This document shows, in pieces, positions 3 through 34,328 of a stretch of DNA of 38,039 nt; the stretch's first letter is position 1; every line of letters starts with the position of its first letter. Origin of the DNA: Synergistaceae bacterium (lineage in GTDB: Bacteria; Synergistota; Synergistia; Synergistales; Synergistaceae); contig JAIRNC010000026.1 of NCBI GenBank assembly GCA_031258255.1, positions 1 to 38,039 of the forward strand, given 5' to 3'. The notes under the pieces were generated by a model. It made no database searches and had not been told where the DNA came from. It was given only the letters and a program-made list of their open reading frames with translations. The position numbers and the translations under genes are program-made.

Positions 3-149
3 TGTTCGGTTGTAACCTCGCCCCATTATGAAAATGCCTCCCTCTTCTCTATTGTCCTTGGAAGCAGTCTATGCCTTGGGCCGATCTTTATGAAGGTGAC
101 TGATTATTTACCGCTTACACTGGAACAATTAGAAACAGCAAAAAATTAA
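3..149 (+). CDS. C-terminal end of an unidentified protein, cut by the window edge
   Basis: The reading frame is open from the first bases and ends with TAA at 147-149, giving 48 residues. The tail has a hydrophobic stretch (ASLFSIVLGSSLCLGPIF) followed by a polar end (LEQLETAKN), which would suit the last membrane helix and tail of a membrane protein. The family is not recognisable from so little sequence. It could also be a chance frame in an AT-rich stretch. Confidence 0.3.
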   Translation, partial: CSVVTSPHYENASLFSIVLGSSLCLGPIFMKVTDYLPLTLEQLETAKN

Positions 150-333
150 CGAGCCAGTTTGTGATGTCGCGAGGGAGATTACAGTATCAGTCAGTAGTTA
201 CGGCTAGTTTTACCTCGTCACACATTCCGGGAATCCAGGATGCCAGATACCTCCTATGTGATGTAATTTTCTCAACGCCGACACGGGGTAAAATCCTGCG
301 GCACTGAACCTTGAAAACTGGATATATGCGGTT

Positions 334-507
334 GTCCGGGGCAGTCCCGGACGTAAAATATCCAACGCTCAAACGAAAATCAGGGCTTTTTGCCCTTTTC
401 GCAGAGTGGGGGCATCCACTCTTAGGGGAGAAGACGTAAGACTGGCTCCGGCCAGCAATCTTTGTCGATCCTAGAATCCCCTTGCTTCAGCAAGGGAAGT
501 ATGTCAA
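334..507 (+). mobile_element. IS200/IS605-type right end with an orphan omega-RNA-like hairpin chain
   Basis: Five perfect or near-perfect hairpins follow each other: 334-340/346-352, 382-386/392-396, 403-409/416-422, 442-446/451-455 and 479-485/490-496 (loop TTCA). The last lies in the context GAATCCCC...TTCAG...GTATGTCAA, which I recognise as the usual right-end hairpin of IS200/IS605 tnpB elements. The frame ending at TAG 472-474 reads ...STLRGEDVRLAPASNLCRS; GEDVR is common near the TnpB C-terminus. No tnpB body and no tnpA are present upstream. In known elements the tnpB 3' end plus right end is transcribed as the omega-RNA guide scaffold, so this may be a tnpB-less relic or miniature derivative. 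The guide position would start about 508. Assignment rests on motif memory and folding by eye. Confidence 0.6.
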
Positions 508-676
508 GTCGTTGCCAATGGCCGCCCAGTCGCTCTTAAGCGCGCGCAGGTCGGCGGCTTCCGTCGGCGGCTTCCGGCGATTCAGACCTGTTGTATTGCG
601 TCATCGTGTCGCCCAAGTCAATCGCCCTCCCCATGTCGCGGATAAAGCTTGGCGCAGCGAAAAGGAAATCATCCAT
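487..676 (-). pseudogene. Small conserved hypothetical protein, frame broken by a 13-bp tandem duplication
   Basis: From ATG at 676 (preceded by an AGGGGG ribosome site about 8 bases upstream) the frame reads MDDFLFAAPSFIRDMGRAID and onward to SPEAAD, then shifts and stops near 536. A 13-bp direct repeat, 550-562 and 563-575, lies exactly at the break. Removing one copy restores the continuation ADLRALKSDWAAIGNDL, which matches a small protein common in plasmids and islands (DFL-PSF..., LG-T---YN, ADW-A-G-D). The restored frame then runs into the IS605-type right end, whose bases supply the last few residues and the TGA at 487-489, so the 3' end was probably lost to that insertion. Function is unknown. 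Confidence 0.6.
550..575. repeat. 13-bp perfect tandem duplication
   Basis: GTCGGCGGCTTCC occurs twice head to tail (550-562, 563-575). Thirteen is not a multiple of three, so the duplication shifts the frame of the small gene on the minus strand. It looks like a recent slippage event. Confidence 0.9.
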
Positions 677-2620: not shown

Positions 2621-3772
2621 TTAAGCTTCTTCCCTGAGTTTATCTAAGTACGAAGCCCACCACTGCATCATCTTCCGGCGCTCGGGCAGATACTCGGCGT
2701 AGTTGTACGCGGCGCGGACGCCGTTGCCTTCCACATGCGCGAGCTGGCGCTCTATCCAGTCGGAGTTGAACCCGTTCTCGTTGAGCAATGTCGACGCCAT
2801 GCTGCGGAAACCGTGCGGCGTCATCTGGTCTTTCGTGTAGCCCATGGCCCTCAAGGCGACGAGCACCGTCGAGTCGCTCATCGGGCGGTTGCCGTTCGGA
2901 TCCCTGTTCGACGGGAATATATACCTCCCGTGCCCGGTCAGCTGCCTCGTCTTTTCCAGCACGTCTATGGCCTGACGCGACAGCGGGACGATATGGGGCC
3001 GCCGCATTTTCATCTTCTTTTCTGAGATGTGCCATTCGTCGCCGGATATTTCAGACCACTCGGCTTTGCGGATTTCGCCAGGGCGGCAGAACGTCAGCGC
3101 TGAGAACTGCATCGCGCAGCGGACGGTATCGTGTGGGTATGCGTCGATCGCGCGCATCAACATGCCGACTTCTTCCGGTTTTTTGGGGCTAGGGTAGTGT
3201 CGTTTTTTCGGCATGATGATTGCACCCCTGAGCGCGTATGTCGGGTCTCCAGAACACCGGCCCGTAGCGACGCCGTAGCGGAATATCTGTGACGTTATGC
3301 TGCGTATGCGGGACAGCGTCTCAAAGTTGCCGCGTTCTGCAAGCCGCTGGAATACGGGCAAAATTTCCTGCGCCGTGATCTCCGAGATGTCCTTGCCGCC
3401 GATGAACGGCAACAAATGGCTGTCCATTCGGTTGCGTTTTTTAACGCGGTCTTTTTCGCTGGCGATTTTTTTGTCGTGGGCGTCGGCCCATTCTAGGGCT
3501 ACCTCCCGGAATGTCGTCCCTTTCGAATCCAGAGGCGTCCCGTCCATGAGTTTTTTCCTGAGGCCGTTTCTGCGCTCTCTCGCCTCCTGCAATCCGACGA
3601 GCGGGTATTCGCCGACTGTAGACCAGTTCCTCTTCCCGTTTTGGACGTAACGGAACCGCCAGTATTTTTTCCCTGACGTCATGACTTCGAGGTAAAGCCC
3701 GTCGGAATCCGAGATCTGGTATCGCCTGTCCTTGGCTTTAGCCGATTTGGCCTTGGTTTCGCTCAGCGGCAT
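2621..3772 (-). CDS. P4-type tyrosine recombinase / integrase
   Basis: The product is 383 residues from ATG 3772, chosen because GGAGGG lies 6 bases upstream; an in-frame extension to 3982 crosses the tRNA and is not credible. The N-terminal part (about 1-95) resembles the DUF4102 arm-binding domain (KAKDRRYQISDSDGLYLEV, YWRFRY). The middle is a SAM-like core-binding domain. The catalytic domain shows R230 (CRPGEIRKAEW), HGFR at 320-323, H346 (QLAHVEG) and a nucleophile tyrosine at 356 or 358 (AAYNYAEY). Such integrases insert islands into tRNA 3' ends, and a tRNA-Leu lies 168 bases upstream of the gene, so this is the integrase of the island to its left. All catalytic residues are present, so it may be active. 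Confidence 0.92.
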   Translation of the reverse strand: MPLSETKAKSAKAKDRRYQISDSDGLYLEVMTSGKKYWRFRYVQNGKRNWSTVGEYPLVGLQEARERRNGLRKKLMDGTPLDSKGTTFREVALEWADAHDKKIASEKDRVKKRNRMDSHLLPFIGGKDISEITAQEILPVFQRLAERGNFETLSRIRSITSQIFRYGVATGRCSGDPTYALRGAIIMPKKRHYPSPKKPEEVGMLMRAIDAYPHDTVRCAMQFSALTFCRPGEIRKAEWSEISGDEWHISEKKMKMRRPHIVPLSRQAIDVLEKTRQLTGHGRYIFPSNRDPNGNRPMSDSTVLVALRAMGYTKDQMTPHGFRSMASTLLNENGFNSDWIERQLAHVEGNGVRAAYNYAEYLPERRKMMQWWASYLDKLREEA

Positions 3773-3940
3773 TGTAGTCCCTCCGAAATTTACGTGTAGT
3801 CCCGTTTGTAGGCCGAGTTGCGTTAGATTATGCTGAATTGTACTGTTTTGTGTTGGACAAGTCAACATAGCAAAAACCCGCTTTGCTGGCGGGTTTCGAT
3901 GCTTTTTTGGACTATTTTGGATTGTGCTGGTTTCATTGGA

Positions 3941-4026
3941 TGGTGCCGAGGGGGGGAATCGAACCCCCACGTGGTCTCCCACGGCGGATTTTGAGTCCGC
4001 TGCGTCTACCGTTTCGCCACCTCGGC
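3941..4026 (-). tRNA. tRNA-Leu (anticodon CAA)
   Basis: The minus strand folds as an 86-base class II tRNA: acceptor GCCGAGG/CCTCGGC, anticodon loop CTCAAAA giving CAA, a long variable arm (GTGGGAGACCAC), a T loop GTTCGATTC and an encoded CCA end. The 3' end faces the integrase, so it is the likely attachment site of the island. Confidence 0.95.
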
Positions 4027-34147: not shown

Positions 34148-34206
34148 ATCTTCGGTAACGTGAAACAAAGCATCGAAACAGCATAAGGCAAGCACAATCT
34201 AGCCCG

Positions 34207-34295
34207 TGTCAGGGCAACCCGGTTAAAATCCGGGACAGCCCGGCTACTGTAACTGCGGCAGATTTTTCCTGACGCAGGAGTCAGAAAACCTGACA
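34207..34295 (+). ncRNA. Cobalamin (B12) riboswitch
   Basis: The aptamer core is closed by a perfect stem TGTCAGG (34207-34213) / CCTGACA (34289-34295). Within it are the conserved arm CCCGG-TTAAAAT-CCGGG, the linker ACAGCCCGGCTACTGTAACT (compare the usual CAGCCCCCGCTACTGTAA) and GCAGGAGTCAGAAAACCTGAC. These are the hallmarks of the cobalamin class. Flanking bases on both sides may form the outer stem. B12 binding normally favours a terminator or hides the ribosome site; an intrinsic terminator lies 33 bases downstream. The genes controlled should be those from 34477 or 35111 onward. Confidence 0.88.
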
Positions 34296-34328
34296 TCGTG
34301 GAGACCATTGCTCTTGGGAGGCTTCCGG

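Follow-up and report, generated by a model that had tools for sequence, protein, structure and literature searches.

The window analysed here is 38,039 nucleotides long and makes up an entire contig of a MAG that is 85% complete. Positions 403-507 of its forward strand carry an IS605/IS608-type TnpB guide-RNA scaffold together with the right end of the element, recognised by identity to Helicobacter suis sequences, by covariance structure and by the score to a covariance model (R1). Overlapping the scaffold lies a frame (400-474, forward strand) that translates as RRVGASTLRGEDVRLAPASNLCRS followed by a stop, and this is the TnpB C-terminal tail that ends intact tnpB genes in relatives. The right-end hairpin and the GTATGTCAA border occupy 478-507 on the same strand, with one C-A mismatch in the window's hairpin. 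If the RNA were used, its guide would, from what is known of TnpB biology, be taken from the flanking DNA at forward positions 508-527; from 508 onward the window runs antisense to the final part of a small, frameshifted gene. The fold of window 300-520 reaches -89.6 kcal/mol (z = -5.05; 1 of 200 shuffles equally low), and for window 277-507 z is -4.12, with none of 200 shuffles as low.

Further along the window, the minus strand carries two antitoxin-toxin pairs that resemble HicB/HicA (904-1481 and 1659-2259). The phage-type integrase gene beside them (2621-3982) extends into a tRNA gene. One sequence is present in three partial copies (approximately 831-900, 1560-1625 and 2341-2406), which lie between the HicBA pairs and read as encoding the tail of an HTH-type regulator. 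Scanned against Rfam at gathering thresholds, the window yielded two tRNAs and a cobalamin riboswitch only, and no RAGATH-18. The riboswitch (34190-34311) scores 31.8 bits, just above the Rfam cut-off of 31.5 bits.

Several lines of evidence connect the scaffold to tnpB genes. Six plasmid records match window 403-507 at 80-81%, every one of them from H. suis, and a TnpB gene lies beneath the match in five of these six rows; compared with the 3' ends of H. suis tnpB genes, window 403-507 is 81% identical. In one H. suis plasmid (L003), an intact tnpB of 360 aa continues into the same 105 bases as window 403-507, and the scaffold likewise forms the 3' end into which tnpB genes run at L077, L080, L082, L132 and L135, among others. 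From 18 copies, 29 pairs are predicted in the scaffold. Nine of these show changes on both sides, and the window copy keeps 27 of the 29 intact and breaks two. Model R1 was trained on these 18 copies, the window included, and scores the window scaffold, as a member of its own training set, at 120.5 bits; its covariance matches extend to 49 of the 180 genomes of the order. Right ends related to that of the window were found in 9 of 52 genomes of the family with a query (300-540) that also catches the upstream domain described below. The border GT.TGTCAA is present in all 18 rows of alignment A2. Searches with the exact right-end pattern in the genome-contig collection, and with two sequence patterns on viral contigs, gave no matches. 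Solitary right-end hairpins at L002, L011 and L015, some of them fully palindromic (TTGACATACTCCCC...GGGGAGTATGTCAA), resemble minimal palindromic relics of the window's element type. Judged by its homology, window 403-507 is the 3' terminus of an element of the IS605/IS608 type.

The sequence-only reading of this DNA had described, at an IS605-type right end lacking tnpB, an omega-RNA-like scaffold built of consecutive hairpins and bearing a GEDVR trace of a TnpB-like C-terminus. Homology and covariation support that description: the hairpins are real by comparison with shuffled sequence, the right end matches the 3' ends of H. suis tnpB genes, the trace is the end of the 400-474 frame, and no tnpB was found in the window or in the assembly. 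Elements in related genomes also share the right end, as the family and order counts indicate, so the reading withstood the check that it had itself set for refutation. What the reading missed is the upstream stretch 277-402, a separate RNA domain that is found in tnpB-less IS607 elements as well, and its start of the feature at position 334 was wrong, the conserved 5' domain starting at about 277-297.

We use the name M for the core (297-369, forward strand) of this conserved upstream stretch at approximately 277-402. M consists of an outer helix (319-325/358-364) enclosing a hairpin (334-340/346-352), as recognised by covariation and by the score to model R3, and within 297-369 it contains the conserved single-stranded segments TTGAAAAC (TTGA.AAC) and GTAAAAT. 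A 5' hairpin, GCCGACACGGGG...CGGC (277-302, forward strand), is predicted from the fold and alignment A1 and is present in most IS605-type M copies. On the other side, M is joined to the scaffold by a linker hairpin, CGAAAATCAGGGC...TTTTCG (374-401, forward strand), which is predicted from the fold and differs among copies. The window M scores 87.7 bits to R3 as a copy within the training set of that model.

In an alignment of 65 copies fitted to the M structure, as alignments A4 and A5 are, 97.9% of 907 cells are paired, and 12 of the 14 pairs and 141 cells are changed on both sides, compared with 42.7 cells expected from shuffles; none of 500 shuffles reaches 141, and slid controls fall to 29-52% paired. 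A MAFFT alignment of 11 sequences gives 96.0% paired, with six pairs changed on both sides. A possible pseudoknot of the GGTT:AACC type has partial support, at 81.8% of cells. Furthermore, 43 of 66 copies have a second motif, AA[CT]CAAG in GCGAtAACCAAGC, within or just past M, compared with 1.95 expected from shuffles. This motif is not found in the window or in the other IS605-type Synergistaceae copies of M, and it is absent upstream of nine tnpB-linked RAGATH-18 motifs.

Other identities for this region were considered and rejected. A degraded tnpB at 305-402 is excluded by the in-frame translation upstream of the tail, which is not TnpB, and by the conservation of the stretch as a module in other genomes. 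M as a CRISPR leader was rejected at least in genome G137, where there is no repeat array beside two copies. Nor is M a known Rfam RNA: at gathering thresholds the window has no family match covering M, and there is none up to an E value of 5 in L047, L060, L065, L067, L068 and L005.

Upstream of M, a promoter-like extended -10, TGATGTAAT, is located at 259-267 of the forward strand, and aligned copies have TGNTAAAAT or TATGAT at the same place. There is no good -35 near this site in the window, and a consensus promoter scan did not return it. A TATAAT-like hexamer (at least 5 of 6 positions) occurs upstream of M in 51 of 64 stretches, one of 65 being too short, against 27.7 in 200 shuffles (sd 3.5, maximum 38), and many of these hexamers are exact TATAAT at one spacing. 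By sequence and predicted structure, the stretch at approximately 277-402 is a promoter-like site with a conserved structured RNA domain, not tnpB.

The promoter-like site adjoins the right end of an unrelated repeat (108-239, forward strand), which ends in TTCCGGGAATCCAGG and occurs twice more in this genome (L057 and L063). After the end point at about 239, these two copies and the window continue with different sequence. The left end of the window element was probably lost to the abutting repeat: the left-end hairpin behind a TTAC-type target is absent in the window, and the sister copies L005, L059 and L064 have a left hairpin followed by ATATAAGG, as in H. suis. Relatives of the interrupted gene, sought in nine genomes for an empty site, returned the window itself only.

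Model R3 lists 63 M matches in 26 of 180 Synergistales genomes; models R1-R3 were trained in part on copies that they later found, and many copies of M are located where MAG contigs end. A guide-RNA scaffold follows M in 42 of the 63, and none is recognised in 21. M runs into the IS605 scaffold in seven matches. Four of these are complete (the window, L047, L049 and L060), two are cut by a contig end (L005 and L016), and one (L059) diverges after about 24 bases, keeping the first scaffold bases only. Outside the window, this combination of M with the same scaffold is found in G029 (L005, L016), in G137 (L047, L059) and twice in G083 (L049, L060).

IS605 and IS607 are families with unrelated transposases. 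In 35 of the 63 matches, M leads into RAGATH-18 at or above the Rfam cut-off, in a check that covered every one of the 45 M loci in genus g37 and G150, and the distance from M is 45-50 nt in 29 of the 35 and 61-71 nt in the other six. Sister elements in g37 thus carry M 45-71 nt upstream of RAGATH-18, whereas the window itself has no RAGATH-18. RAGATH-18 (Rfam RF03064) has been described as the reRNA motif of IS607 TnpB, 64% of RAGATH-18 RNAs adjoining IS607 TnpB and 36% not (PMC11061315). The M-RAGATH-18 elements carry an CTGTAACGG end in 27 of 35 cases, TTACAG in 25 and both in 23, with short flanks explaining part of the misses, and by sequence motif these ends are IS607-like. Of 12 TnpB loci retrieved from g37 (two more places than genomes, G113 contributing two), nine have RAGATH-18 directly after tnpB and seven the same TTCTGTAACG end, and none contains M. 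In total, R3 found M in none of 30 tnpB-bearing loci of both transposon families. M-linked and tnpB-linked RAGATH-18 copies are 65-84% identical in 16 comparisons across five g37 genomes, so TnpB of the matching kind is present in those five genomes.

M also precedes other 3' parts. In six of the 63 matches (L109, L113, L119, L124, L131 and L203) it lies before a conserved module, class C, of the form AGTCAGGAATGC...GTAGTACGCC, which occurs without M too, and at the 18 places of this module in 7 of 13 genomes there is no TnpB nearby. Seven further matches (L072, L073 and L151-L155) belong to a 330-nt repeat of G137 composed of a TTGACA-N17-TATGCT-like promoter, M and an unassigned structured 3' part. 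The other eight (L064, L067, L010, L021, L111, L192, L205 and L209) are truncated or rearranged or have no assignment. Class C in g37 and the G137 repeat, in which M stands before 3' modules without a link to TnpB, would fit the view of M as a self-contained small-RNA or ribozyme-like module that transposons acquired for purposes other than TnpB, such as RNA stability or the regulation of transposition, with the scaffold incidental. We regard this explanation as improbable, as two-thirds of M copies (42 of 63) run into a recognised scaffold, RAGATH-18 keeps its 45-50 nt distance in 29 of 35, and M is absent from all 30 of the tnpB-bearing loci. Because 21 of the 63 matches are without a recognised scaffold, M may have a wider role, and these matches, together with the lack of a close TnpB in G083, call for caution.

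Genome searches that spanned more than 40 genomes used stricter filters. In the window's genome, which at 85% completeness does not allow missing TnpB or TnpA to be taken as proof of absence, TnpB gave no hits by profile PF07282 and no matches by an H. suis TnpB protein query, and PF01797 gave no hits for a Y1 transposase. The suggestion that the guide could be charged by a TnpB elsewhere in this genome is therefore unsupported. One more right-end hairpin (30 nt) is present in the genome, on contig C12. Among relatives, the nearest that match H. suis TnpB are two members of the genus, G031 and G033, with fragments only. G083, a single contig with two complete M-plus-scaffold elements, has distant TnpB matches only (best 33% identity). 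At L065 (1939-2337), an IS200-type transposase frame has DHIR at the place where we would expect the two-histidine motif, and this transposase is perhaps inactive.

The window copy may be dead, since its left end is gone and no TnpA or TnpB was found. A more general reading would be that of a dead remnant similar to a PATE (palindrome-associated transposable element), in which an internal deletion left the IS605 ends, the upstream stretch is a passenger, and nothing is made or used. The lost left end with another repeat abutting, the TnpB and TnpA searches, the two broken pairs out of 29 and the plain deletion derivatives of G137 all agree with this. In that genome, 11 of 20 inspected right ends have a left end (TTAC followed by GATAA(A/G)G) less than 230 nt away, which leaves no room for tnpB, and several of these derivatives keep the last ~30 codons of tnpB. 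The upstream stretch, however, is a conserved and covarying domain that reaches from promoter to scaffold in two transposon families and several lineages, unlike a passenger. We consider the dead remnant unlikely as a general explanation, and it could hold for the window copy yet be false for the class.

Our favoured reading is that the window probably holds the remnant of a non-autonomous, tnpB-less IS605-type element, belonging to a class that makes stand-alone guide RNAs with the shared 5' domain M. The anatomy of the elements, the homology to tnpB-linked scaffolds, the covariation of M, the promoter enrichment and the presence of M in place of tnpB in two families are observed, and we infer transcription, loading in trans and a function of M as follows. 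The tnpA and tnpB genes would have been replaced by the promoter-like site and M, fused to a nearly intact scaffold and right end. Transcription would start upstream of M and continue through M and the scaffold into the flanking DNA. An autonomous relative present in the cell could supply the TnpB that loads the resulting stand-alone RNA, and the loaded TnpB would cut the empty donor site, such that the element is restored. M would stand in for the tnpB message, the normal source of guide RNA in autonomous elements, and probably fixes and protects the 5' end of the RNA or is bound by a factor.

The same RNA could conceivably serve as a decoy or silencer that occupies TnpB or guides a nuclease-dead relative, restraining autonomous elements or regulating genes. 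The coexistence of tnpB-linked and M-linked scaffolds of the same type in five g37 genomes (65-84% identical) would be compatible with this role, as would the reported inhibition of cleavage in cis by part of the TnpB message (PMC10278001). Nevertheless, the DNA at the guide position varies among copies, as in ordinary elements, and there is no fixed target, which makes such a role very unlikely.

M is also found beyond Synergistales, in Bacillota and in a phage-like contig (IMGVR_UViG_3300031673_006372). On this contig an IS605-like left hairpin is followed by TATAAT, then by M, and then by a scaffold with right end; this scaffold and right end match the 3' ends of tnpB genes in Peptoclostridium, Paenibacillus larvae and Bacillus plasmids. 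M is likewise present in unannotated plasmid DNA of Brevibacillus halotolerans, at 46.2 bits, and of Bacillus arachidis, at 65.7 bits. The outer helix of the B. arachidis copy is GAAGAT/ATCTTC compared with GAATAT/ATATTC elsewhere, by eye a compensatory change. Phage records searched with a G137 repeat or with the phage-like element, and plasmid records searched with the window M, gave nothing useful.

A broader proposal is that M is the common 5' domain of widespread trans-encoded guide RNAs, shared by tnpB-less IS605, IS607 and other elements in at least two phyla, with one promoter-M head serving several scaffolds and recognised by a common host or TnpB factor. We put this forward tentatively, as a possibility with somewhat less than even chances. 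If stand-alone guide RNAs of this kind are made, they would represent guide genes with a common head, uncoupled from the nuclease gene and in this way resembling CRISPR arrays. This would explain the persistence of tnpB-less elements and could offer a natural design of compact stand-alone guides for different TnpB families.

A guide-RNA scaffold without tnpB is not new in itself, since PATE-like deletion derivatives are known, and a description of the shared 5' domain was found neither in Rfam nor in the literature searched. Meers et al. (2023) may have described orphan guide RNAs in PATEs. The portion of the literature searched, which covered few preprints, gave no description of M or of a head common to tnpB-less IS605 and IS607 elements. 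Likewise, the terms standalone, orphan and promoter are absent from the main text of the RAGATH-18 study, and no mention of M was met in the accessible parts of that paper (PMC11061315). PATEs, for example those of Halanaerobium, are ends-only IS605 elements with a 3' piece of tnpB, like the window, and the deletion derivatives of G137 resemble these already known elements (PMC7290912). In one PATE-like element, 28 nt from the left end are fused to the final 58 nt of tnpB together with the right end, and this element, unlike the window, is described without a conserved RNA domain at its 5' side; the accessible parts of that account do not take up guide RNA (PMC7290912). In autonomous elements, the guide RNA is cut from the message of TnpB itself (PMC10278001). 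The window shares with the IS608-type omega-RNA (reRNA) a scaffold that overlaps the 3' end of tnpB and the right end, a closing hairpin ending in ...TCAA and a guide position directly 3' of it, and differs from it in carrying a promoter-like site and M in place of tnpB.
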